Both the position numbers and the translations under genes were made by a program. Of a stretch of 32,726 nt of DNA, positions 1,460 to 13,949 are shown piece by piece. This stretch comes from Rhodocyclaceae bacterium (lineage in GTDB: Bacteria > Pseudomonadota > Gammaproteobacteria > Burkholderiales > Usitatibacteraceae). Within the stretch, counting starts at the first letter, position 1. Each line of letters starts with the position of its first letter. The notes under the pieces were generated by a model. It saw nothing but the letters and a program-made list of their open reading frames with translations, searched no databases and was not told the origin of the DNA. Location of the stretch: contig JADCIX010000022.1 in assembly GCA_020247545.1 (NCBI GenBank), positions 1 to 32,726 on the forward strand, given 5' to 3'.

Positions 1460-2182
1460 TCAAGACTTGGATTGCTTTAAAGACATCGAGTACACAAAAT
1501 CCGAACCCGGATGCAGGTTCACAGCGGCAACGATCAGCTTACCGGAGGGATCGAAGTACCGTCGTGCGATACGTAGGCATACACTTGATTTTGGTACGCC
1601 CAGTTCTAGCGCGTTTTCTGTGGGCAATGGTGCGGCGTTGATATCTTGCTCAACCATGCCTATATGGCCAATCTCTAATTCTTCGACAAGCGCGTAAACC
1701 GCTCCGCTGACTTCCATCAGACGTCTCGAGAGTGGATCTTTGCTGCCGATGCGGTAGATGTCGGACACACAAAACGGTGCCTCGCCCTTTTGCGTGCTGC
1801 GCAAGCCATGCAAATGAATACACTCGCTACCCACTTCACAGCCAAGCAATTCGGCGAGCTCATCGTCGGCCATGACAATCTCGGTGTGTTTGATGGTCAG
1901 ACGCGTGTTGGCACCATACTGCAGCAGGTCCTGTACGGAGCTGATGCTATGGTTAAAGCGCTGTCGCGAGTTCGCGATCACCAATGTGCCCGAGCCCTGC
2001 TTACGTTCGATCATCCGATCATGGATCAATACGCGTAACGCTTCCCTAGCGGTGTGGCGTGAGATCTCGTAGGCGGCACACAGCTGTAGTTCGGTAGGCA
2101 GCAGCGTACCGACTTGGTGACGCCCTTTTTCAATGTCCCGGCGGAGCTGGTCGGCGACAGTTTGATAGCGGGGTTTTGACAT
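1460..2182 (-). CDS. GntR-family transcriptional regulator, HutC/UTRA type
   Basis: The 240-residue regulator has an N-terminal GntR winged helix (about residues 5-70, with the typical LPTELQLCAAYEISRHTAREAL helix-turn-helix, split here as LPTELQLCAAYE then ISRHTAREAL). A UTRA ligand-binding domain follows (about 90-235) and ends in the usual F-x-YSMS strand. UTRA domains bind small effectors such as sugars, amino-acid derivatives or acids and usually relieve repression. The gene diverges from the catabolic operon beginning at 2308, and the gap contains two TGTCCGGACA palindromes. It is therefore the obvious candidate to bind them and to control the operon, the TonB receptor and itself. That assignment is inferred from position and palindrome geometry. 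The ATG at 2182 has no strong Shine-Dalgarno. Confidence 0.9.
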   Translation of the reverse strand: MSKPRYQTVADQLRRDIEKGRHQVGTLLPTELQLCAAYEISRHTAREALRVLIHDRMIERKQGSGTLVIANSRQRFNHSISSVQDLLQYGANTRLTIKHTEIVMADDELAELLGCEVGSECIHLHGLRSTQKGEAPFCVSDIYRIGSKDPLSRRLMEVSGAVYALVEELEIGHIGMVEQDINAAPLPTENALELGVPKSSVCLRIARRYFDPSGKLIVAAVNLHPGSDFVYSMSLKQSKS

Positions 2183-2265: not shown

Positions 2266-2323
2266 CAAAATGTCCGGACAACTTTATTATGCGCTTATAA
2301 TGAAAATATGTCCGGACAAATTT
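2266..2323. promoter_or_regulatory. Divergent control region: -10 box and two TGTCCGGACA operators
   Basis: The 10-bp perfect palindrome TGTCCGGACA occurs at 2271-2280 and 2309-2318, with centres 38 bp apart. The second extends to the 20-bp AAATATGTCCGGACAAATTT (2304-2323) with one mismatched pair. A consensus TATAAT lies at 2296-2301; the best -35 is CGGACA (2275-2280, spacer 15), inside the first palindrome. The expected start point falls on or next to the ATG at 2308. Repressor bound to both sites would cover the -35 and the start. The GntR regulator at 1460-2182 is the likely ligand. Confidence 0.7.
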
Positions 2324-3777
2324 ATCTGAACCGCGCCGCAAAAGCCAGCGCCAATGCATCTGCAGGCACCGGCCCGAGCGCGAGTGTTTTGGAGACATTA
2401 GCCACGCGCCTGGCGGCACCGGTTGATGATGCCACGCTCAGCCGCGCAACGCGACATGTGCTGGACTGGTTGGCCTCGGCGCAGCTCGGCATGGTCCAGT
2501 CCTCCGCAGAGGGATTTGTCACGCTCGCGGCTGAATCCGAACCAGGGCGGTGTCGCACGGTGGCGGGTAAATCCGCCGATTGGTGGCACGCTCTGCAAGT
2601 AAATGCCGCGTTGGGTAACATCATGGAGATGGACGACCTACATCGGACGTCGATCCTCCATCCGGGTCCGGTGATTGTGCCTGCCGCGATTGCAATTGCA
2701 GAGAAAGTTGGCGCGTCCGGCGCTGAGTTACTGGACGCCATTGTCCGTGGCTATGAAGCGACGATTCGTATCGGCCGCGCACTGGGAACGTCGCACTACA
2801 AGTATTTTCATAACACCAGCAGTTGTGGCAGCTTTGGTGCCGCGGCCGCTGCAGCTTCATTGCTCAAGCTCGATCATGCCAAAACTGTGTCTGCACTGGC
2901 TAATGCCGGCAGCCGTACGGGTGGTCTGTGGCAGATGCGGCACGAAGCTTGTGAGACCAAATCGTTGCACAATGCGATGGCGGCGCAGACAGGGGTGCAA
3001 AGTGCGCTGCTCGCGGCAAACGGTGTGCGCGGCCCGACACAATTGCTCGAAGGCCCGCAGGGGCTGTTTGCGGCAACTACTGATCACGCCGATCCGCAGG
3101 CGGTAGTCGCGCAAATGGGGCGAGGGGATGGTTGGCTGATTCATGATGTGAGTTTCAAGCCCTGGCCGGCTTGTCGTCATGCCCATCCCGTCATTGACGC
3201 GGCATTGGCGCTCGCCAAGACCATGGCGACAAGAAGTGTAGGGCAGGCGGCTGACATCCGCGCGATTGAGGTTGCGACCTACAAGAGCGCCATCGATTTT
3301 TGCAACAAGCCGGACCCGACGACGGAGGCCGAAGCGAAGTTTAGTTTGCAGCATTCGGTAGCGATCACGCTCCTGCGCGGCTTGGCGGGTGAGCTACCGC
3401 AACTCATCGACTTTGCGGTTTCAAATTTGGCTGATCCAAATGTCGTGGCGTTACGCGAGCGGGTGAGTGTGGGTGAAGATGCCGGCCTAACCAGCGCTTT
3501 CCCTAATCACTACGCCGCGCGATTGAAAGTCACGATGAGCAATGGTGATGTCCTCAACCACTTACAAGAAGACGCGTGGGGCGACCCCGAGTTGCCGCTT
3601 TCGCAAGAAGGTCTACAGGCAAAGTTCTTCATGTTGTTTGATGCCGCCGGTGTTGAGCGCGCGGTTACCCAAGCTTTGCTGGCGGCAACGCTGGCGTTGC
3701 CGATGTCCACAACAGTCTCCGACTGGACTGCGCTGTGGCCCAACGTCGTTTCTCAAAATTCAGCGCAGCATACATGA
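2308..3777 (+). CDS. MmgE/PrpD family protein, first paralogue
   Basis: The 489-residue protein belongs to the MmgE/PrpD fold family, which includes 2-methylcitrate dehydratase, cis-aconitate decarboxylase and iminodisuccinate epimerase. The family signature EMDDLHRTSILHPG lies at about 107-120. A Lys-containing TKSLHNA segment (K218, H221) and the FKPWPACRHAHP motif (about 283-294) correspond to the catalytic Lys and His region of the decarboxylase, so it is probably active. The substrate is unknown, presumably a polycarboxylate or a similar acid. The ATG is part of the second operator and lies 7 bases after the -10 box, so the mRNA is predicted to be leaderless; no Shine-Dalgarno is seen. 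Its stop overlaps the next start by ATGA, indicating translational coupling. Confidence 0.9.
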   Translation: MSGQIYLNRAAKASANASAGTGPSASVLETLATRLAAPVDDATLSRATRHVLDWLASAQLGMVQSSAEGFVTLAAESEPGRCRTVAGKSADWWHALQVNAALGNIMEMDDLHRTSILHPGPVIVPAAIAIAEKVGASGAELLDAIVRGYEATIRIGRALGTSHYKYFHNTSSCGSFGAAAAAASLLKLDHAKTVSALANAGSRTGGLWQMRHEACETKSLHNAMAAQTGVQSALLAANGVRGPTQLLEGPQGLFAATTDHADPQAVVAQMGRGDGWLIHDVSFKPWPACRHAHPVIDAALALAKTMATRSVGQAADIRAIEVATYKSAIDFCNKPDPTTEAEAKFSLQHSVAITLLRGLAGELPQLIDFAVSNLADPNVVALRERVSVGEDAGLTSAFPNHYAARLKVTMSNGDVLNHLQEDAWGDPELPLSQEGLQAKFFMLFDAAGVERAVTQALLAATLALPMSTTVSDWTALWPNVVSQNSAQHT

Positions 3778-5180
3778 CCACGGCGATACACAAACCGGCG
3801 GCCGCCGATCACGTCGGGTTAATCGTGCAGCATGTATTGATGCACGCGGACCCGAGCAGCGTACCGCTCGTTGCACGCAACGCCGCAAAAATATTTATGC
3901 TCGACAGTATTGGTGTCGCGCTTGCCGGTGCTTCAGTCGCAGAATCTTCGCTGGTTCGCCGCGCCGCATTGACGTGGGGAAAAAGCGGTGGACTCGATTG
4001 TGATGCGAGCGTTTGGGGCAGCCGTGAAAAACTGCCGGCACCCTCAGCCGCAATGGTGAACGCGTTTCATATCCACAATCAGGAATTCGATTGTGTGCAT
4101 GAAAAAGCGGTGGTGCACCCAATGGCGGTGATCCTCGCGGCGTTGATGGCGTATGCAGAACGTAATGGCCAAGTTTCGGGCGAAAAATTCTTAGCCGCAC
4201 TTGCCATCGCCGTCGATGTTGCAACCGTGATCGGCATGACCGCCACCAAGCCGATTCGTTTTTTTCGCCCTGCACAATGTGGATGTCTTGGCGCTGCGGT
4301 AGGTATGGCGTATCTAGCCGGCATGGATGAAGGTGGTATCAAAAACACTTTGGGGCTTGCTTACAGCCAGCTCGCAGGCACGATGCAAGCGCACATTGAA
4401 GGCACCCCGACACTCGCATTACAGGTGGCGTTTGCCGCACGTGCCGCTGTGTGTGCGGTGGATCTCGCACAGCTGGGTTTCCGAGCACCACACGACGTAA
4501 TCGACGGTAAGCACGGTTATTTTGCGTTGATTGAAGACGGTGTCGCCAACGTTGCGGCGTTTGCGGAACTTGGCAAGGTCTGGCAAATTATGCGCGTGTC
4601 ACACAAGCCCTACCCGACTGGGCGCGCCGCGCAAGGCGGCATTTCCGCGTTGCAAACTGCGATGCGAGAGCATGACCTGACTGCTGACGCTGTGATCTCG
4701 GTGGTGTTGCATGCGCCGCTGCTGATTCGACAATTGGTTGACCGGCCCTATCGCGATGGAATGGCAACAAACTACGCGCGACTGTGTCTTCCGTATTTAC
4801 TCGCGCTGGTCTTGCGTGACGGCAAGGTTGGACTGGACGCATACAACGAAACGAATTTGCGGGACCCGCAGTTGCGGGCACTGGCGCACCGAATAAACAT
4901 CGTCGCCGATACCAACACAAACCCGAACGCACTTACACCGCAGGCGCTCACGCTCCAATTGGCGGGCGGTCGCAGTGTATCTGTCGATATCGGTGTCGTG
5001 TACGGCTCCCCCGAAGCGCCGATGACCAGTGATGCACAGCACGAGAAGTTTGTCGCATGCTGTAAACACGCGCCCAAGCCGCTGACCGACCTACAGATCG
5101 AGAGATTGATCGCCGCGATCAATACTATCGAAGGCACCGAAGATGCATCAAGTATCGTTAAGCTAACCATGGTGCCCTGA
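3774..5180 (+). CDS. MmgE/PrpD family protein, second paralogue
   Basis: The 468-residue protein is a second MmgE/PrpD member. The start at 3774 is chosen because its ATG overlaps the preceding TGA as ATGA; an earlier ATG at 3735 lies inside the upstream gene. The family signature is degenerate: FDCVH (about 105-109) replaces the usual D-D-x-H, although the downstream VVHP is kept. The segment corresponding to the catalytic Lys of its neighbour reads EGTPTLALQ. The late motif HKPYPTGRAAQ (about 277-287) has Gln where His is common. It may be a non-equivalent enzyme of a different subfamily or a partner subunit. Coupled translation with the first paralogue suggests joint action. The specific function is unknown. 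Confidence 0.88.
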   Translation: MTTAIHKPAAADHVGLIVQHVLMHADPSSVPLVARNAAKIFMLDSIGVALAGASVAESSLVRRAALTWGKSGGLDCDASVWGSREKLPAPSAAMVNAFHIHNQEFDCVHEKAVVHPMAVILAALMAYAERNGQVSGEKFLAALAIAVDVATVIGMTATKPIRFFRPAQCGCLGAAVGMAYLAGMDEGGIKNTLGLAYSQLAGTMQAHIEGTPTLALQVAFAARAAVCAVDLAQLGFRAPHDVIDGKHGYFALIEDGVANVAAFAELGKVWQIMRVSHKPYPTGRAAQGGISALQTAMREHDLTADAVISVVLHAPLLIRQLVDRPYRDGMATNYARLCLPYLLALVLRDGKVGLDAYNETNLRDPQLRALAHRINIVADTNTNPNALTPQALTLQLAGGRSVSVDIGVVYGSPEAPMTSDAQHEKFVACCKHAPKPLTDLQIERLIAAINTIEGTEDASSIVKLTMVP

Positions 5181-5227
5181 CCCCGCACCTTCTCACCTCC
5201 TCACCTTCCCCTCTTTTCCTTCACCCC

Positions 5228-6628
5228 ATGTCCCAGCCCCTCTACTTCGATACCTTTGATTGGCAAACGCTAAAGCAGCAATATCCCATCGGCGCGGATT
5301 TCATGACGCGCTACAAAGGTATCAGCAGCGATCATTTATTTGCCATCCAGGATGCACTGTTCAAACGCTGTATGTCGCGCGGCTGGAAGATTCCGTTTTA
5401 TCAGCGGCTGTGGGGGGCCAAGGGTATTGAGGCAGGAGATATTCGCGGTCTGGAAGACATCGCCAAGCTGCCGACGTTTTCCAAGACGGAGTTGATGGAA
5501 AGTGTCGAGCTGGCGCCACCGCTAGGTGACTATCACGGGCTGGATAGTTATGACGACGCGACACGCCCACCGATGATTTTGCATACCACCAGCGGCACCA
5601 CGGGCCGACCACAGCCGCTGGTGTTTGGTCCGCGTGGCCGTGAGATTCAGAACCTGTTGCTTGGACGTGCTTATACCTTTCAAGGCATAGGTGAGGGCGA
5701 CACCGTGCACTCGGTCTATGGCCATGGTTTGATTAACGGCGGGCACTATGTGCGTGAAGCGGTGTTGCATTACACCCGCGCAGTGTTTTTGTCGGCGGGG
5801 ACAGGTGTGGAGACGCGCTCCCTGCAGCAAGTGCAAATCATGCGTGACTTTAGCGTGACCGCAGTCGTTGGTTTCGCGGACTACATCAAGAAACTTGCGG
5901 AAGTTGCGCATGAATCTGGCATCGTGCCGGGACGCGATATTCCGGTCAAGCGAATTTCCGGACACTTGGGGCGTGAGTCACGCGAAGCGCTGTCCGCGTC
6001 GTGGGGCGACTGTGAAGTGTTTGATTGGTATGGCGTTGGTGATACCGGGTTGATTGCCGCCGAGGGGCCCGATCACGACGGCCTGTATGTCATGGAAGAC
6101 GCGCAGTACGTAGAAATTGGCGACGTCGATACCGACCTGCCGGTTGCGGATGGTGAAAACGGCAACCTGATCGTCACGTGTTTGTATAAAGATGATATCT
6201 ACCCCTGTATTCGCTTTAACACGAAGGACGTTTCGGCGGTGAAGACGGGTGGCTCCGCAATTGACCTCGGCTTCAAACGCATTGAAGGCTTCCTCGGTCG
6301 CTCCGACAACATGATCAAACTTCGTGGCATCAATATTTATCCGCAGGGTTTGGCGCCGGTGCTGGAGCAAAACAATTCCTACGCCGGGGAATTTGTGTGT
6401 GTGGCCGAGCGCGATGCCGATGGGCGCGATGAATTAACGGTGCGCGTCGAAGTCAAACCAGGTGTTGCGGCAGATGCGGGTTTGGTGGACGCGTTTGAAG
6501 AACTGTTGAAGCAGCGTTTTGGTGTGCACATGAAGGTGACATTGGACAAGCCCGGCACACTTGCCCCGCTGACCGGCATCGAAACACGGCAGAAGCCAAT
6601 TCGTTTGATCGATAAGCGCTTTAAGTAA
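5228..6628 (+). CDS. PaaK-like AMP-forming acyl-CoA ligase
   Basis: The 466-residue protein has the architecture of phenylacetate-CoA ligases, i.e. the short-form adenylate-forming family. The P-loop TSGTTGRP lies at about 121-128, the YGVGDTG adenine motif at 268-274 and FNTKD near 330-334. GRSDNMIKLRGINIYP (357-372) marks the hinge to the C-terminal domain, whose end contains a candidate catalytic Lys (K456 region). It would convert a carboxylic acid, ATP and CoA to acyl-CoA, AMP and PPi in the cytoplasm. The acid need not be phenylacetate; the context suggests a product released by the amidase. It starts 47 bp after the second MmgE/PrpD gene. That gap is almost pure pyrimidine and has no Shine-Dalgarno. 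Confidence 0.88.
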   Translation: MSQPLYFDTFDWQTLKQQYPIGADFMTRYKGISSDHLFAIQDALFKRCMSRGWKIPFYQRLWGAKGIEAGDIRGLEDIAKLPTFSKTELMESVELAPPLGDYHGLDSYDDATRPPMILHTTSGTTGRPQPLVFGPRGREIQNLLLGRAYTFQGIGEGDTVHSVYGHGLINGGHYVREAVLHYTRAVFLSAGTGVETRSLQQVQIMRDFSVTAVVGFADYIKKLAEVAHESGIVPGRDIPVKRISGHLGRESREALSASWGDCEVFDWYGVGDTGLIAAEGPDHDGLYVMEDAQYVEIGDVDTDLPVADGENGNLIVTCLYKDDIYPCIRFNTKDVSAVKTGGSAIDLGFKRIEGFLGRSDNMIKLRGINIYPQGLAPVLEQNNSYAGEFVCVAERDADGRDELTVRVEVKPGVAADAGLVDAFEELLKQRFGVHMKVTLDKPGTLAPLTGIETRQKPIRLIDKRFK

Positions 6629-6652
6629 ACCTTTGCAATCCCACTCAGCGTG

Positions 6653-7942
6653 ATGGACGTCTTGAAGTTAATCGATGACATTCAACAGCGCGATCGCGAG
6701 ATCGGCGCGTTTGTCGCGTTCGCCAAATCAACAAGCTCGCCTATCGACGGGCAGTTTCAGGCAAAAAATGCTGAAAACGCCCTACAGGATTGGACTTTTG
6801 CCGTTAAATCAAATATTGCTGTCGCAGGACTCGCACACACGGCGGGCATCGGCGGCTACCGCGATCGCATTGCATCCGAGGACGCGTTTTGTGTGGCGCG
6901 GTTACGCGCGGCGGGTGCGGGCATTATCGGCACGGTGAACATGGAAGAGGCCGCACTTGGTGCTGTCACCAACAATCCACACTTTGGCAAGACGCACAAC
7001 CCGCATCGTCACGGCTACACCGCAGGTGGGTCGAGTGGCGGCAGTGCAGCGGCGGTGGCGGCTGGCATGGTGCGTGTGGCACTCGGCACCGACACCATGG
7101 GCTCGTGCCGAATTCCCGCCGCCTACTGCGGCGTGGTGGGCTTTAAGCCCAGTTACGGTCGTATCAGTATGCGTGGGGTGGAACCATTGTCGCGCAGGCT
7201 CGATCATGTCGGCATCCTAGCCAATACTGTTGCCGATGTGCGCGAGGTTTTTGCGGTGCTCGACTGTTTTGATGCGAACGATGCCGGTGCCCGTCGGTAC
7301 AATGCTAAGCTCGCGACTTCAGTCAAGCCGGTTCGCTTAGCCGTACTTGACGACGCATCACGTGCCGGGCTCGACGCCGATGTGCGCCGTGACTACGAAG
7401 GCGCGTTGGACCAAATTGCGCGTGCGGGTTATCAGCTGACAGAACGTGCAGTCGACCAAGCCAAATTAGCTACAGCGCGGCGCGCCGGCTTACTCATTTG
7501 TGAAGCCGAACTTTCGGTTACCTTGGCTGACTTGCTGGCCAAGGACGATGGCGGCGTGTCTGCAAATCTTCGCAAACTTATCGCCTTTGGTGCGGCCAAA
7601 TCGGCGGCGGACATCTCAAACGCCCACGCGGCCATTGATGCCACCGCGGCAGTATTGCGTGAGCAGTTATCCGACGTGGATGCGGTGTGTTGGCCGACCG
7701 CACCACAAACTGCATTTGCCTTTTCAGCACCGGTACCCGCCAACCAAGCCGACTTTACTTGTCTGGCGAATTTCACCGGCGCACCAGCGATCAGCCTGCC
7801 GATGCCGTGCGCGCCGAGCAACATGCCCAGCGGCCTGCAACTGATGATGGCGTCTGGCGAGGATGAGGCTTTACTCAACCTCGCCGAATCGCTCGCAACA
7901 ATAGTAGAGTCCAACCGTCGCAATGCAAACAACACAACATAA
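6653..7942 (+). CDS. Amidase-signature family amidohydrolase
   Basis: The 429-residue enzyme has the complete Ser-cisSer-Lys machinery: Lys in FAVKSNIAVAG (about K52), the cis-Ser in AGGSSGGS (about S127) and the nucleophile in GTDTMGSCRIP (about S151). The 24-residue spacing between the two serines matches malonamidase E2. It would hydrolyse an amide (or ureido) bond to a carboxylate plus amine or ammonia. The family includes AtzF-like allophanate hydrolases and many broad amidases, so the substrate stays open. It follows the CoA ligase by 24 bp. The ATG at 6653 is preferred to the adjacent GTG at 6650; neither has a clear Shine-Dalgarno. In this operon it could free the acid that the ligase activates. 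Confidence 0.9.
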   Translation: MDVLKLIDDIQQRDREIGAFVAFAKSTSSPIDGQFQAKNAENALQDWTFAVKSNIAVAGLAHTAGIGGYRDRIASEDAFCVARLRAAGAGIIGTVNMEEAALGAVTNNPHFGKTHNPHRHGYTAGGSSGGSAAAVAAGMVRVALGTDTMGSCRIPAAYCGVVGFKPSYGRISMRGVEPLSRRLDHVGILANTVADVREVFAVLDCFDANDAGARRYNAKLATSVKPVRLAVLDDASRAGLDADVRRDYEGALDQIARAGYQLTERAVDQAKLATARRAGLLICEAELSVTLADLLAKDDGGVSANLRKLIAFGAAKSAADISNAHAAIDATAAVLREQLSDVDAVCWPTAPQTAFAFSAPVPANQADFTCLANFTGAPAISLPMPCAPSNMPSGLQLMMASGEDEALLNLAESLATIVESNRRNANNTT

Positions 7943-7964
7943 CGCCCGACCAGGAGAATTTGCC

Positions 7965-9221
7965 ATGACCGATACGCCGATCCCGTTGGCCACCAAGCCG
8001 AATACGGTTTACCCCTGGGTGATGGCCATCATGGCCATGCTGCTGTTGTTAGTGACCAACGGCCTGACCACCACCGGCATCACCGCATTTGATAGTTCGC
8101 TCTTAAAGGAATTCGGCTGGTCGCGTGGTGAACTGAAGTTTCGCGACCTGCTCACATTAGTTGTCGCTGGGTTGTGTGCGCCGTTTGCAGGGGCCATGAT
8201 CGACCGGTTCGGTGTGCGGCGCTTGATGATGTTGGGGTTGGGCATTTTTGCCGTGCTGTATTTTCTCTACGGCCAGATCCAGGACAAAACCCATCTCTAC
8301 GCGATTCACTTTGGCTTCGGTATCATTCTGGTGATGGCGGGAATCAATATCGCGGTAATCCTAGCCTCGCAGTGGTTTGTGAAACATCGCGGCACGGCGG
8401 TTGGCCTTGCGGTTGTTGGAAGTAGCCTTGGTGGAATCGTGTTGCCGCCGCTGATCATCAGCCTGATCGGCGATTACGGCTGGCGTAATGCATTCGGCAT
8501 CGTCGCCATCATCCCGGTGGTATTCATGCTCCTGACATGGTGGCTGGTGCGCACACCCGCTGAGAAGAACACCGTGCCGTTAGGGCATGGTGTGCCGAAC
8601 AAATCCGCTGCGGCACCGTCGCCAAATGATTTGCGCTACAAAGAAGCCTTAAAGACCCGGAGCTTCTGGGCGCTTTCGTTTGTCGCGATGGCTACCTTTT
8701 ATTCGGTGTTGGCGGTGGTCGCGCACTTGATTCTGTATGTCATTCCGCTTGGGTTCGATCCCAAATACGCGCTTGGCTTATTGTTTATCCCGGGGCTGTT
8801 CAGCAAATTTTTGTTTGGTTTCCTAGCAGACATCCTGCCGCCAAAATGGGTATTCCGCGGCAACCTGTTCATCATGCTGATTGGCATGGTGTTGCTGGTC
8901 ACCTTCGACAAAGATTTAGTCAAAGCCGCAGTTGTCATCATCGGCTTTGGCTGGGGTGGGGCGTATACCCTTATTCAGTTGCAGGCGATAAATAACTTCG
9001 GCTTGACTGACGCGGGCAAGATATTGGGAACCATCACCATGATGGATGCCATCGCCGGGGGGCTCGGCATTTGGCTCACGGGCGTGTTGTTCGACAAGTT
9101 CGGCAACTATCATGTCGCGTTTTACATCCTGTGTACCCTCGTCGCGGCGGCGTTTTTGATGAGCTTCTTTGTTAAACGCGAAATCAAAGAAATCAAGGAA
9201 GTGTCGCAGGCAGCGGGCTAG
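7965..9221 (+). CDS. MFS transporter, monocarboxylate/oxalate-formate-like
   Basis: The 418-residue membrane protein has a hydrophobicity pattern fitting 12 helices. MFS motif A is present in the loop after helix 2 (GAMIDRFGVRRLM) and a hydrophilic central loop lies near residues 195-225. The second half resembles the oxalate/formate antiporter and monocarboxylate porter group. The ATG at 7965 is chosen because AGGAG lies 8 bases upstream; an ATG at 7923 overlaps the amidase and lacks a site. It is the last gene of the operon and probably imports the substrate, or a carboxylate derived from it, across the inner membrane. Direction and substrate are inferred from context. Confidence 0.88.
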   Translation: MTDTPIPLATKPNTVYPWVMAIMAMLLLLVTNGLTTTGITAFDSSLLKEFGWSRGELKFRDLLTLVVAGLCAPFAGAMIDRFGVRRLMMLGLGIFAVLYFLYGQIQDKTHLYAIHFGFGIILVMAGINIAVILASQWFVKHRGTAVGLAVVGSSLGGIVLPPLIISLIGDYGWRNAFGIVAIIPVVFMLLTWWLVRTPAEKNTVPLGHGVPNKSAAAPSPNDLRYKEALKTRSFWALSFVAMATFYSVLAVVAHLILYVIPLGFDPKYALGLLFIPGLFSKFLFGFLADILPPKWVFRGNLFIMLIGMVLLVTFDKDLVKAAVVIIGFGWGGAYTLIQLQAINNFGLTDAGKILGTITMMDAIAGGLGIWLTGVLFDKFGNYHVAFYILCTLVAAAFLMSFFVKREIKEIKEVSQAAG

Positions 9222-9296
9222 CGCGTCGTACCCTACGCTACGGGGTTGCAGAAGATCGTGACAAAACCAGTGGCCGGTGGCGAGGCTACGCTTGCG

Positions 9297-9329
9297 GCCG
9301 CGTCGAATACGTAACGCGGCTTTGCTATT
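9297..9329 (+). terminator. Candidate terminator after the catabolic operon
   Basis: GCCGCGT (9297-9303) and ACGCGGC (9314-9320) form a perfect 7-bp GC-rich stem with a 10-base loop, followed by TTTGCTATT. A second small hairpin, GGCGAG-CAG-CTCGCC, is at 9330-9344. The T-tract is weak, so termination is only suggested. Confidence 0.4.
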
Positions 9330-9370
9330 GGCGAGCAGCTCGCCGTGCGCTTCAGCCGGGTGTCGTGGCG

Positions 9371-9394
9371 CAATGTTGTGTACATGCAACATTG
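9371..9394. promoter_or_regulatory. Inverted repeat just upstream of the TonB receptor -35 box
   Basis: CAATGTTG (9371-9378) and CAACATTG (9387-9394) are perfect 8-bp arms around an 8-base spacer, TGTACATG. The right arm ends one base before the -35 element at 9396, a usual place for an activator site. The binding protein is unknown and differs in site sequence from the TGTCCGGACA operator. Confidence 0.45.
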
Positions 9395-9395
9395 T

Positions 9396-9439
9396 TTGAC
9401 GTTGTACAGTTAGCGGAATACAATTTGTCCGGACAATTT
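9396..9439 (+). promoter_or_regulatory. Sigma70-type promoter of the TonB receptor with overlapping operator
   Basis: TTGACG (9396-9401) and TACAAT (9419-9424) are separated by exactly 17 bp, a near-consensus housekeeping promoter with a start expected near 9431. The palindrome AATTTGTCCGGACAATTT (9422-9439, one mismatched pair) overlaps the -10 box and the start. It is the same operator as in the GntR/MmgE intergenic region. Occupancy would block the promoter, predicting repression of receptor expression. The 5' UTR to the ATG at 9544 would be about 113 bases. Confidence 0.75.
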
Positions 9440-9543
9440 AGATGGCCGGTGTGGGGTTGATACCGTGCGCCGCGTCGTTGAGTAAAAGTGAAGGTCACAA
9501 TTACTACAATCGCAACTACCGCTGTATTTTTCCGGAGGCATCC

Positions 9544-12216
9544 ATGAAGATAAAAAACATCACCCAGGCAGTCGGGCTGGCAATCGCAGGTTCGATGATC
9601 GCCGCCACATCTGCGTTTGCCCAGGGTGCTGCCAAGGTCGAGAAGATCGAAGTCACCGGCTCGAACATCAAGCGCGCCGACGTCGAAGGGCCGCTGCCAG
9701 TGTTGGTCATCACGCGTGAAGAAATCGACCGCAGCGCTGTGGCCACGGTTGGCGACTTCGTGCGCGGCCTTACCGTCAACTCGGGTGGTAGCGGTAACGA
9801 ATCTAACATCAGCAACCAGTCTGGTGCATCGGGCGTATCGCTACGCGGCCTTGGGCAAAAATCGACGCTGGTGCTGATCAACGGACGCCGCATGGCGAAT
9901 CATGCATTTGCGCGTAACAATCAAGATACGTTCGTCGATTTAAACTCCATTCCGAAGGGCGCGATTGAACGCATCGAAGTGTTGAAGGATGGAGCATCGG
10001 CAGTTTATGGCTCTGACGCCATCGGTGGCGTGGTGAACTTCATCATGCGCAAGGATTACCAAGGAATTCAGTTCGGTGCTGACGCCGGGCGCCGTAGCGA
10101 TGGTGGCCTCAACGAGCGGAATGTGAACATCAGTGGCGGCGTCGGCAGCCTGGCTAAAGACAAGTACAACATCTTTGGTGTTGTCGATTATTTCCACCGC
10201 GACCGCATGCTGCTCTCCGATAGCAAATGGGTCGGCGACGGAAACTACTCCCGTTATGTTGGTGGTGCGCTATTCAATAACTTCTTGACATCCTCAGCGG
10301 GCACGTGGGTATCTGTGGCACCGGACCCGGCGTTCTCGCCGACGAGCTTGACCGTACAGCCCACAGGCGTTCCGGGAGGTGTGCGCCGTCAGGCATTCAC
10401 CACGTGTATGGGTAACGGCTTCCGCTTGAATCTCGGCGCGATCCCAGCGGCACCATTCTTCACGACCGGTACGATTTGCGCAGGCTCGCTGACGCCTTTC
10501 ATCGTTGCCTACCCTGAGCAAACGCGTGTGGGCGGCATGGCGCGCGGTAACTTTGAGTTGTCGGGTGGCACCAATGCGTTCTTCGAAGCGCAGTACGCGC
10601 AGAACAAAACCAATTTTATTTCGCAGCCGCAGACGATGACGCAGTCGTCGCAAGTGTTTGATCCCGCCACGCAGACGGCGCGCCTCTACAACGTGCGCAT
10701 CCCGGCAACCAATCCTTCCAACCCTTTCGGTCGCGCATACCAACTGCGCTACACCTTCTTTGATGTTGGCGCGGTGCAAAACGACATCAAAACCGACGCT
10801 TACCGCGTGCTCGGTGGCTTTAATGGAACTGCGGGGCGCTGGGAATGGGATGGTGCGATTGGTGTTTCGCAGAGTAAGATAAACGAAAAGCGTCAGAATC
10901 AGGTCGATGCCGATGCGCTACAGCTCGCAATTCAGAACGGCACGTACAACTTCTTAGCTCCCACTCCGGCGCAAACGGCGGCAATTCGTGTGAGCACCGA
11001 GCGCAATTCGACGTCTGATCTTGCCTTTGGTGACATCAAAGCCACCACCACCATCGGCAAACTCGATGGCGGAGATATTGGCTTCGCGATGGGTATCGAC
11101 GCGCGCCGCGAGAAGTTTAACGACCAACCTGATCCGCTTACGCGCACTGGGCGTCTGCTTGGCACGGGTTCGTCGATCACCAACGGCTCGCGCAATGTTG
11201 TCGCGGCATTTGCCGAAGTCAGCGCACCGTTCACGAAAGCGGTTGAACTTGTCGCTGCAGCTCGTGCAGACCGCTACAGCGACTTCGGTAGCGCTGTCTC
11301 TCCGAAAGTTGGCCTGAAATGGTCGCCTAGTAAGGATGTATTGGTGCGCATGTCGTATAACCGAGGATTCCGCGCGCCAACCCTCGTCGAGAACACACAG
11401 TCGACGACATTGAGCCTCACCACGCTCACTGGTCTCGGTGCAACCGGCGGCACTGCTGTGATCTTGCGCGGCAACCCTAACCTCAAACCGGAGAAGTCCG
11501 AATCGTCTTCGATTGGTGCAGTTTGGGATCCGATGAAAGACTTGTCGTTGTCGTTGGATTGGTACAAGATCGATCAGCGCGATCTTATCTCCATCAACGG
11601 CGCGGGCTTCATCGCCAATAACGCCGCGCTCTTCCCGAACGCTATCGTTCGCGATTCCGCTGGCTTGATTACCACGATTTTTGACGGCTACGTCAATGTG
11701 GCGCGTGTGTCCGTTGAGGGACTCGATGCGGAAGCACGCTGGGTTGTGCCATCGGCATGGGGCTTCCCGGGCCGCTTGCAGGTGCGCTCAGTTGCTTCAT
11801 ACCTGACCAACTTCAAGCAGCCGCCGGCACGCGGCGCAAACTTGGTGCAGTATGCTGGCAACAACGGGTTGCAGGGCTCCCCGGGCCGTGGCGCACTGCC
11901 GCGCACAAAAGCGAAGTTGGGCTTCGATTGGGATTACAAAGGCTTCGCGGTGTCGACTACGAGCAATTACATTAGCGGTTATCGCCAGCTGAACGCGACC
12001 ATCATCCCGACGACGATTGGAAGCGTTGGTTCGTACCTAACAACCGATTTGTCGGTGTCCTACACCTACGCTAAGAAGCTGAAGTTATATCTCAGTGCGC
12101 TTAACTTGGAAGATCGTCAGCCACCGTTTGATCCCTCTACGTTTGGTTGGGATTCAACCCTCTATGACCTGCGTGGTCGTTACTTCCGTGGCGGGTTTCA
12201 GTACACGTTTAAATGA
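9544..12216 (+). CDS. TonB-dependent outer-membrane receptor
   Basis: The 890-residue protein has a signal peptide (cleavage after TSAFA, about residue 26), then a VEKIEVTGSNIKR segment that can serve as TonB box and plug start. The plug domain reads through GASGVSLRGLG, LVLINGRR, IPKGAIERIEVLKDG and SAVYGSDAIGGVVNF. A 22-strand barrel follows, with the typical YNRGFRAPTL and NLKPEKSES segments, ending in an aromatic strand (YTFK). The start at 9544 is chosen because of GGAGG 5 bases upstream and the signal peptide; in-frame ATG 9442 gives a 34-residue extension without signal character. It energises uptake of a bulky or scarce substrate through TonB/ExbBD. The operator on its promoter ties it to the upstream catabolic operon. 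The ligand is not predictable. Confidence 0.92.
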   Translation: MKIKNITQAVGLAIAGSMIAATSAFAQGAAKVEKIEVTGSNIKRADVEGPLPVLVITREEIDRSAVATVGDFVRGLTVNSGGSGNESNISNQSGASGVSLRGLGQKSTLVLINGRRMANHAFARNNQDTFVDLNSIPKGAIERIEVLKDGASAVYGSDAIGGVVNFIMRKDYQGIQFGADAGRRSDGGLNERNVNISGGVGSLAKDKYNIFGVVDYFHRDRMLLSDSKWVGDGNYSRYVGGALFNNFLTSSAGTWVSVAPDPAFSPTSLTVQPTGVPGGVRRQAFTTCMGNGFRLNLGAIPAAPFFTTGTICAGSLTPFIVAYPEQTRVGGMARGNFELSGGTNAFFEAQYAQNKTNFISQPQTMTQSSQVFDPATQTARLYNVRIPATNPSNPFGRAYQLRYTFFDVGAVQNDIKTDAYRVLGGFNGTAGRWEWDGAIGVSQSKINEKRQNQVDADALQLAIQNGTYNFLAPTPAQTAAIRVSTERNSTSDLAFGDIKATTTIGKLDGGDIGFAMGIDARREKFNDQPDPLTRTGRLLGTGSSITNGSRNVVAAFAEVSAPFTKAVELVAAARADRYSDFGSAVSPKVGLKWSPSKDVLVRMSYNRGFRAPTLVENTQSTTLSLTTLTGLGATGGTAVILRGNPNLKPEKSESSSIGAVWDPMKDLSLSLDWYKIDQRDLISINGAGFIANNAALFPNAIVRDSAGLITTIFDGYVNVARVSVEGLDAEARWVVPSAWGFPGRLQVRSVASYLTNFKQPPARGANLVQYAGNNGLQGSPGRGALPRTKAKLGFDWDYKGFAVSTTSNYISGYRQLNATIIPTTIGSVGSYLTTDLSVSYTYAKKLKLYLSALNLEDRQPPFDPSTFGWDSTLYDLRGRYFRGGFQYTFK

Positions 12217-12322: not shown

Positions 12323-12541
12323 TTAGAGACCGAAATTTGTTTCTTGAGCTCTCGTGCCGGATAGGCTAACGCACCCGTGTTGAGCGAGACGAATGCAGTG
12401 CGCGCCAGGTTGCGCTTCTAGTTGGGCGATGGTGTCCAGCGCCGCTGGAAGACCTTCATACAGCTCGCCACGCACGAAGCCGTCGGGTGCTTCGACAACA
12501 TCGTCCATTGAAGTAAATAGCGTCGCGACGAGTTTCCGCAT
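12323..12541 (-). pseudogene. Remnant with DHFR/RibD-C-like N-terminus
   Basis: The stretch starting at 12541 reads MRKLVATLFTSMDDVVEAPD, which closely resembles the first strand and loop of the stand-alone dihydrofolate-reductase-like (RibD C-terminal) family, whose members usually begin MRKLV with LDGVxEAPG. After about 22 residues the resemblance stops. The frame ends after 72 residues, where a normal member has about 180-200. No Shine-Dalgarno is seen. It is probably a truncated or recombined relic, although a short real gene starting further upstream (12607 or 12622) cannot be excluded. Confidence 0.35.
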
Positions 12542-12595
12542 AATTTCTGGTTGCGGTGTCGAGTGATGCGCGCTGGCTGGCAGGAGGTAATCCGC

Positions 12596-12607
12596 TTGTC
12601 CGGACAT
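12596..12607. promoter_or_regulatory. Fourth TGTCCGGACA palindrome
   Basis: TTGTCCGGACAT contains the same perfect 10-bp core (12597-12606) as the operators at 2271, 2309 and 9426. It lies just beyond the tdk stop, upstream of the minus-strand DHFR-like remnant. The flanks do not extend the palindrome, unlike the site at 9422. It may be a true but orphaned operator, or chance. Confidence 0.4.
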
Positions 12608-12615
12608 CTCTCGTG

Positions 12616-13182
12616 TCAGCACTTGCCGGTATAAAACCGCCGCGCGCAGACTGCTTCGTAGCGGTCGTTTCCACCGATTTCAACCTGTGCGCCTTCGGTA
12701 ATGCGATTTCCCGAAGCGTCAAGACGCACGTTCATGGTGGCCTTGCGGCCACATCGGCAAATCGTTTTCATTTCCTCCAGATCATCGGCCAATGTAAGCA
12801 GCGCCTTGGAGCCAGGAAACGGCTTGCCTTGGAAGTCGCTGCGCAGCCCGTAGCAGATCACCGGGGTAGATGAAGTGTGCGCTAAACGATGAAGCTGTGT
12901 GACCTGCGCCTCGCTCAGGAATTGAGCCTCGTCGATGAGGACGCATGAGGGAGTCGGCTTGGCACCGTAGATCGTGGCGAAATCGGTTTCGGCAGTGAAG
13001 GTCGCCGCATCACGGGTGACGCCCAGCCGCGAGGTTACGTTGCCGACGCCGTAACGATCATCGACGCGAGCGGTGTAGAGGTCAACTGACTGGCCGCGCT
13101 CCTCATAGTTGTGTGCAACTTGTAGCAACGAAGTTGATTTGCCAGCGTTCATCGCGGCGAAGCGGAAATAGAGTTTGGCCAA
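12616..13182 (-). CDS. tdk: Thymidine kinase, type II
   Basis: The 188-residue protein matches bacterial thymidine kinase in length and order of motifs. The Walker A loop AAMNAGKST lies at residues 9-17, the DEAQF segment with the catalytic acid at 84-88 and the zinc-finger pair C142/C144 in ICRCGRKATMN. The lasso and substrate region GAQVEIGGNDRYEAVC (about 164-179) follows. It phosphorylates thymidine and deoxyuridine with ATP in pyrimidine salvage. The third zinc ligand C179 is present, but the usual C-x-x-H/C pattern is broken: the residue three after it is Arg. The last residue, C188, might substitute. It lies 131 bp downstream of lexA on the same strand. Confidence 0.93.
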   Translation of the reverse strand: MAKLYFRFAAMNAGKSTSLLQVAHNYEERGQSVDLYTARVDDRYGVGNVTSRLGVTRDAATFTAETDFATIYGAKPTPSCVLIDEAQFLSEAQVTQLHRLAHTSSTPVICYGLRSDFQGKPFPGSKALLTLADDLEEMKTICRCGRKATMNVRLDASGNRITEGAQVEIGGNDRYEAVCARRFYTGKC

Positions 13183-13313: not shown

Positions 13314-13931
13314 CTAAATTGTCCGCACCACTCCCACCACGAGACCTTCGATATCGAGTGTTTGTTTGGAGAGATCCACCACAATCGGCAGGTAATCGGG
13401 ATTCTCCGCCACGAGGAAGGCTTGTTTACCTTTCACCTTCAAGCGTTTGACGGTGGCATCACCTTCAACACGTGCCACCACAATCTGGCCACTACGCGCC
13501 TGTTGGGTTTTGTGCACAGCAAGCCAGTCGCCGTCCATGATGCCGACGTCCTTCATGCTCATGCCCTTCACTTGCAGGAGATAGTCTGCGCGTGGCTGAA
13601 ACATCAGCGGACTGACGGGATAGCGACCGACCATGTTTTCCGCAGCGAGGATTGGTGAACCAGCGGCCACACTGCCGATGAGCGGTAGTCCAAACTCCTC
13701 GTCGTTGGCGGCAGTTTCTTCACCCAAGATGCGAATGCCGCGTGATGAGCCGGGTAACATTTCAATGGCACCCTTGCGCTCCAAGGTCCGAAGGTGCTCC
13801 TCAGCGGCATTGGGTGAGCGGAAGCCCAACGCCGCGCAAATTTCGGCGCGTGTCGGCGGCATGCCGTTTTCCGCAATCCATTGTTTAAGGAAGTCGAGTA
13901 TTTCTTGCTGGCGTACGGTTAAATTTTCCAT
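13314..13931 (-). CDS. lexA: SOS repressor LexA
   Basis: The 205-residue protein has the LexA winged helix (about 1-65, with [14 protein letters not shown] and SPNAAEEHL recognition elements). Its S24-like C-terminal protease domain has the autocleavage bond A90-G91 in VAAGSP, nucleophile S125 in KGMSMKD and general base K162 in ATVKRLK. It represses DNA-damage genes and cleaves itself when RecA filaments form. A gamma/beta-type SOS box lies directly in front of the start codon, so autoregulation is expected. The gene diverges from the PhoD-like gene, and tdk follows on the same strand. Confidence 0.95.
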
Positions 13932-13933
13932 AA

Positions 13934-13949
13934 CTGACTTTTTATACAG
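13934..13949. promoter_or_regulatory. SOS box (LexA operator) at lexA
   Basis: CTGACTTTTTATACAG matches the CTGT-N8-ACAG core of the proteobacterial SOS box at seven of eight core positions, with an AT-rich centre. On the lexA strand a TATAAA -10 element (13946-13941) lies inside the box. The box ends 2 bases before the ATG, implying a very short or absent leader. Confidence 0.7.

Follow-up and report, generated by a model that had tools for sequence, protein, structure and literature searches.

The question raised by the locus described here is which protein reads a short palindrome that recurs at its promoters, and what follows when that protein binds. The DNA is a stretch of 32,726 nucleotides from a Rhodocyclaceae bacterium (contig JADCIX010000022.1 of assembly GCA_020247545.1, positions 1 to 32,726; hereafter the window), and the 10-bp palindrome, TGTCCGGACA, lies between gntR, which encodes a GntR-type regulator with a UTRA domain, and a divergent operon headed by an mmgE gene, and again at the promoter of a gene for a TonB-dependent receptor. 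Very probably the palindrome serves the adjacent GntR/UTRA protein as operator, and this protein would act as a repressor. A GntR dimer would bind an extended form of the palindrome, AAWTTGTCCGGACAAWTT, through its two winged helices and, because the site lies beside the -10 element and over +1, would block RNA polymerase. Operator A is predicted to lie over the transcription start of gntR, which would result in autorepression, while operators B and C would cover the starts of the mmgE operon and of the TonB receptor gene, respectively. The same protein is expected to act at eight further promoter regions of the genome, and binding of a ligand by the UTRA domain would release the repressor from the DNA.

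An initial annotation of the window had located the palindrome exactly at 2271-2280, 2309-2318 and 9426-9435 and had missed a fourth exact copy at 12597-12606. Its estimate that about 0.03 copies would arise by chance is of the right order of magnitude, as base composition gives about 0.04 per window when calculated by hand. Five matches with at most one mismatch are present in the window (shuffled mean, 1.20), a number reached in none of 100 shuffles. Operators A (2267..2284, core 2271-2280), B (2305..2322, core 2309-2318) and C (9422..9439, core 9426-9435), none of which has a strand, depart from the 18-bp form AAWTTGTCCGGACAAWTT at two, one and no positions, respectively. The fourth copy, likewise without strand, has poor flanks (CTTGTCCGGACATCT) and lies inside a small open reading frame (ORF) on the minus strand (12323-12622); given these weak flanks it is probably not an operator. 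Another copy whose flanks are weaker (C64:21141; L019:3142), located elsewhere in the genome where a guanylate/adenylate cyclase-like ORF begins, was set aside as weak for the same reason.

The genome to which the window belongs (3,541,102 bases in 95 contigs) has 14 copies of the exact 10-mer and none of the reversed word, and six of the copies fall within 22.5 kb on contig C31. The AT-rich symmetric flanks noted previously are real and are common to 12 of the 14 copies, all of which match AAWTTGTCCGGACAAWTT with at most two mismatches. In the symmetrised information profile of these 12 copies, most positions between -9 and the centre carry high information, which drops further out. The genome-wide scan with flanks that had been proposed as a check returned 17 matches to AAWTTGTCCGGACAAWTT at up to three mismatches (control, 1) and 13 at up to two, the latter consisting of the 12 flanked exact copies and one match on contig C92 (two mismatches) that has no regulon homologue in the surrounding 7 kb. 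The sequences around the 12 sites are dissimilar past about 20 bp and are therefore not a copied repeat. The bare 10-mer was present in 42 of the 61 genomes searched, the window's own included, with up to 13 copies per genome. One of these genomes, G046, has 10 copies and no GntR match, and another, G039, has 13 copies and distant homologues; as many copies are possible in genomes that lack this regulator, the bare 10-mer was dropped as a marker. The feature that discriminates is the extended form.

The 12 flanked sites mark 10 promoter regions. The idea of one GntR regulon that joins uptake and catabolic genes is borne out, as far as comparison of genomes can do so, by co-occurrence within the genus, by sites ahead of orthologous genes in strain UKL13-2 and by sites at GntR homologues in three classes, although the predicted unit is larger than originally stated, with eight of its 10 promoter regions outside the window. 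These regions precede gntR/mmgE (two sites); TonB receptor 1; acyl-CoA dehydrogenase/aconitase-like genes; enoyl-CoA hydratase/hydrolase genes; TonB receptor 2 with a divergent gene (two sites); a hydrolase, a FAD (flavin) oxidase and a VOC gene; a cluster for an SDR, an imidase-like protein, a RipC-like lyase, a MaoC hydratase, an acyl-CoA dehydrogenase and CoA-transferases; a DUF1838 gene; zinc-type dehydrogenase/cyclophilin genes; and the gene for ETF-QO. The comparison of promoters at orthologous loci that had also been suggested was made with UKL13-2, a member of the same genus with a complete single-contig genome. At nine of the 10 regions the orthologous gene in UKL13-2 has a site before it that differs from the 12-bp core at one position at most; the tenth gene, that for the zinc-type dehydrogenase, was itself not seen in the stretches examined. 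The counterpart of the C31 cluster lies within about 41 kb of gntR in that strain. UKL13-2 also has a perfect 18-bp operator near a DUF1800 gene (G003:C1:1870954), to which none of the 10 regions in the window's genome corresponds. In the C31 cluster itself (L015:8250-12592), a DUF1800 protein with FG-GAP repeats is encoded beside a DUF1501 protein, with no exact core copy directly before the two.

Sites and regulator occur together across the genus. A GntR homologue (E <=1e-20) was found in 11 of the 61 genomes. The six genomes of the genus with GntR have 13, 10, 4, 9, 12 and 9 extended sites (at most two mismatches), and the seven without a match have 0, 0, 0, 1, 2, 2 and 0. There are no extended sites in 15 further genomes of the same family, three of which have a distant homologue, and the counts for G038 and G039 are 1 and 0, respectively. 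Upstream of distant homologues in G017 and G019 (L074, L073) the site reads TTGTCCGTACAAACGGACAA or TTGTACGGACAAACGGACAA, plus an overlapping half-site. Beyond the genus, the best 80 of 569 GntR loci from a scan of a genome collection (1.45 Mb in total) were examined, and a site with at most two mismatches was present within 350 bp upstream in 33 of the 80 loci; of 3572 segments drawn at random from these loci, 89 had one. At one mismatch or fewer, 23 of the 80 loci had an upstream site, whether the limit was set at 350 or at 1200 bp, and the reversed word gave none. Over the whole loci the same threshold gave 80 sites in 50 loci (reversed word, 1). Of these sites, 27 are intergenic, 15 lie no more than 100 nt from the start of an ORF, and 38 are located over 100 nt into an ORF of at least 200 aa, as are 82% of random positions. 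Loci with a site of either kind number 58 of the 80 and occur in many parts of the tree, with no fewer than 12 label changes (mean after shuffling, 19.5).

Sites adjoin genes for GntR homologues in three classes, the Alpha-, Beta- and Gammaproteobacteria. In the alphaproteobacterial locus L153 and in L097, L111 and L113, gntR has homologues of both gene sets as neighbours, which provides independent support for one unit. In Yersinia massiliensis, Entomohabitans and Pectobacterium the site lies beside the regulator gene and tblastn detected no homologue of the other regulon genes; in Y. massiliensis and Pectobacterium (L126, L139) the regulator gene is next to those for a fumarase-superfamily lyase and a DASS transporter, and a Wenzhouxiangella locus has a TRAP transporter.

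The position of the sites relative to predicted promoters is consistent with repression. The gntR promoter match (2286..2314, minus strand) consists of CGGACA (2314-2309), a 17-bp spacer and CATAAT (2291-2286), with 9 of 12 consensus matches, and the -10 of the mmgE operon is TATAAT at 2296..2301 on the plus strand, six bases before the ATG and with no recognisable -35. The gntR-mmgE interval thus holds two -10 elements back to back, flanked by operators A and B, although the threshold of the promoter tool was passed by the gntR promoter only. At the TonB receptor gene, the match TTGACG-N17-TACAAT (9396..9424, plus strand; 10 of 12 matches) leaves one base between its -10 and the core of operator C, which covers the predicted +1. 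For six of the 12 sites the best promoter match of the downstream gene has a -10 that ends one base before the core, and five of these six score at least 8.5, a level found at 8% of background positions; the sixth scores 8.

Several observations weigh against the palindrome being a repressor operator of the GntR protein. At the aconitase-like, DUF1838, zinc-type dehydrogenase and ETF-QO genes, and so in four of the 10 regions, the longest possible ORF has the site at its 5' end. In each case the domain match (Pfam or NCBIfam) starts downstream of the site, and the true starts are probably downstream as well. The score of 8 belongs to the zinc-type dehydrogenase promoter and is a level of 16% of background positions, and the scoring of promoters was simple, with AT-rich operator flanks that themselves favour -10-like hexamers. 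As many as 38 of the 80 sites in the GntR loci are deep in ORFs, and 22 of the 80 loci, including Tahibacter and five of six from Azospirillum, lack a site by the criteria used. The reversed word used as control was not matched to palindromic composition, and it has one match each in G004 and G019 and none in the other 28 of 30 genomes. Six of the seven genus genomes without a GntR match are only 80-88% complete, and absence of the regulator from those six is therefore uncertain. No such site was seen upstream of the homologues in G038 (37% identity) and G013 (39%, a fragment) or of the second copy in G039 (29%). Finally, G011, which is 99% complete and has no GntR match, keeps a good site before ETF-QO, possibly a relic of a lost regulon. 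This site (L172:5639-5650, on C114) lies between ETF-QO and a thioesterase-like ORF that would also start with Met-Ser-Gly-Gln (MSGQ).

A site kept without a GntR match would also be expected if another transcription factor bound the palindrome and gntR were merely one of its targets. This alternative is improbable, since the site accompanies GntR homologues in different classes, also at loci with other neighbouring genes, and since GntR-fold proteins have operators with the same arms and spacing. The nearby LexA was rejected as binder because the word directly upstream of lexA (13314-13931, minus strand) is CTGACTTTTTATACAG (13934-13949), presumably a LexA autoregulation box, and not the palindrome. 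Three further UTRA regulators of the genome are encoded on contigs without any copy of the 10-mer, which was counted in favour of the adjacent GntR protein. The regulator, encoded at 1460..2182 on the minus strand (240 aa; predicted binder and autorepressor), has a GntR winged helix (68.5 bits) and a C-terminal UTRA domain (55.8 bits), both above the Pfam cut-offs. Its best NCBIfam matches are to models of the HutC/PhnF/TreR type, and all of them stay far under the equivalog cut-offs (95.0 of 156.8, 87.6 of 220 and 74.7 of 211.95 bits), the second being the score for the HutC histidine repressor equivalog TIGR02018.

Operators of HutC-type GntR proteins usually have the form GT-N-TA-N-AC, from which the palindrome had been said to differ. 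It does so at its centre, which is CG in all 12 sites, but the GT-N4-AC frame and the spacing are kept. The best full-length solved relatives, NagR (YvoA) and DasR, share the GntR/HutC-UTRA domain pair. According to the portion of the source available, the NagR site GTGGTCTAGACCAC has a GTC-NN-GAC frame (PMC4333415). The operator described here has the same frame but a CG rather than a TA centre, and T rather than G before GT. NagR and DasR are repressors of amino-sugar use, whereas the targets here are others and the ligand is probably no sugar phosphate. The AraR operator of Bacillus and Geobacillus, ATTGTACGTACAA, is reported, in the text accessible, to have a CG centre (PMC5289569). Its arms (TTGT-N4-ACAA) and centre agree with those found here, and one base per half differs, with C instead of A beside the centre. 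The winged helix of AraR is related (4egy), and AraR controls arabinose genes, unlike the regulator in the window. The C-terminal domain of AraR is sugar-binding and LacI-like; no domain of this type was found in the regulator, which has UTRA in its place. Excerpts on the AraR recognition helix name R41 and R45 (PMC4218819). Residues R42 and R46 of the window regulator, invariant in 12 aligned homologues, have the spacing of that pair. No description of the regulon and operator of this UTRA branch was found among the matches listed from the open-licence literature, and, judged by title and the opening of the abstract, no paper containing the operator word dealt with a bacterial regulator.

Some GntR proteins activate transcription, and the protein could act mainly as an activator at these sites. 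That seems very unlikely, as the sites overlap the -10 and +1 and do not lie upstream of the -35. A repressor operator in this position has a further consequence at the mmgE gene, where operator B includes the start codon (2308-2310) and codons 2-4 of the first MmgE/PrpD protein: ATG TCC GGA CAA, Met-Ser-Gly-Gln. The sequence ATGTCCGGACAA at 2308 starts an ORF of 489 aa (2308..3777, plus strand), and no Shine-Dalgarno sequence was seen before it; the mmgE start is probably leaderless. Among 27 rows with at least 40% identity, which represent 26 distinct genes (L070 and L083 being one contig), 15 orthologous genes start with MSGQ, each written ATGTCCGGACAA. These 15 genes, which are not independent of each other, consist of six from the genus, five from Alteromonadales and four from Alphaproteobacteria. 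MSGQ in other codons was found in none of the rows, and 15 rows of lower identity outside the 26 also lack MSGQ. In L088, L111, L114 and L123 the operator is present and its ATG opens a short frame only; no such start was seen in others of the remaining 11 orthologous genes. That operator and start overlap is well supported, and the overlap is common, not universal. No clear -10 was seen before the ATG in L122, L125 and L153, and the prediction of a leaderless start is strongest in the genus and in Alteromonadales.

As MSGQ is the N-terminus of these orthologues, it might be argued that the start is conserved for the sake of the protein and that its likeness to an operator is only apparent. 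There is little to recommend this argument, since all 15 genes use ATGTCCGGACAA despite a joint frequency of 0.0067 for this choice of Ser-Gly-Gln codons (from 16 genes of the window's genome), and since the same word occurs away from start codons at other promoters and where its ATG opens a short frame only. Least credible of all is that the copies are chance words or a functionless dispersed repeat, for which the wide distribution of the bare 10-mer might be cited, because the extended form occurs 12 times in promoter regions with dissimilar surroundings, is tied to the presence of GntR (the co-occurrence counts in the genus already refute chance for this form) and is kept before orthologues. 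The overlap with a start codon is the most unusual feature of the predicted regulon, and it looks as if selection for DNA binding dictates the N-terminus of a protein. For Corynebacterium pxpR, the part of the report available describes a divergent region under GntR control that includes a leaderless gene (PMC13274462). There the regulator gene itself is leaderless and its start is 143 bp away from the operator, according to the same part; here the operator lies on the start of an enzyme gene.

The genes under the operator offer some indication of what the regulon breaks down. The C31 operon encodes two CoA-transferases, a RipB/Ich-like hydratase, a RipC/Ccl-like lyase and an acyl-CoA dehydrogenase. 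Clusters for itaconate and methylsuccinate (ict-ich-ccl with mcd and mmgE), as far as excerpts of their description show (PMC12290011), share CoA-transferase, hydratase, lyase, acyl-CoA dehydrogenase, MmgE/PrpD and VOC genes with the regulon, which has imidase-like, amidase, ligase and TonB genes in addition; a search of the text of that paper found neither "GntR" nor "regulator". The hydratase (243.3 of 340 bits) and the lyase (190.3 of 375 bits) fall below the NCBIfam equivalog cut-offs, and the substrate is therefore probably not that of the itaconate/methylsuccinate clusters. The imidase-like protein is PuuE-like, at 223.2 of 424.6 bits below the cut-off of the allantoinase model TIGR03212, and the fold of such proteins includes cyclic imide hydrolases in the passages seen (PMC9304392). 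Together with the amidase, it suggests entry of an imide or amide. ETF-QO under the same operator is consistent with the two acyl-CoA dehydrogenases of the regulon. Its gene content suggests that the regulon breaks down an amide or a cyclic imide, with a branched dicarboxylate as the product. The UTRA ligand is probably a di- or tricarboxylate, a similar compound or its amide, as judged from the neighbouring DASS and TRAP transporters and from the substrates of MmgE/PrpD proteins, which share a 1,4-dicarboxylate backbone in the excerpted account (PMC12290011).

UKL13-2 was assembled from a co-culture with Aphanizomenon, as stated in the portion consulted (PMC5248499), which makes cyanobacterial products plausible as substrates. 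A tetrapyrrole-derived imide as source is a guess, and the matches listed in a search for catabolic clusters for hematinic acid or maleimides gave no direct support for the pigment idea. A tentative joint reading, rather doubtful as a whole, would have a repressor site fused with a leaderless gene start, such that the operator sets the +1, the start codon and the next three residues of MmgE/PrpD, with codons kept in Beta-, Gamma- and Alphaproteobacteria, and a regulon for the conversion of an amide or cyclic imide to an itaconate-like dicarboxylate, the starting compounds being perhaps substituted maleimides from cyanobacterial tetrapyrrole pigments.

Comparison alone predicts, with high confidence, an operator and a coherent regulon. 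A putative operator is thereby assigned to a broad branch of UTRA regulators, and scattered genes become one testable catabolic regulon. The results also suggest that AraR is not the only GntR-fold protein with a CG-centred operator.

The remaining genes of the divergent operon are all on the plus strand. They encode a second MmgE/PrpD protein (3735..5180, from the first possible start; the true start may be further in), a PaaK-like CoA ligase (5228..6628), an amidase (6650..7942) and an MFS transporter (7923..9221) whose best NCBIfam models stay under their cut-offs. The TonB-dependent receptor follows at 9544..12216 (plus strand); its start at 9544, which has CCGGAGG before it and a signal-peptide-like N-terminus after it, was chosen by eye over the ORF start at 9442.

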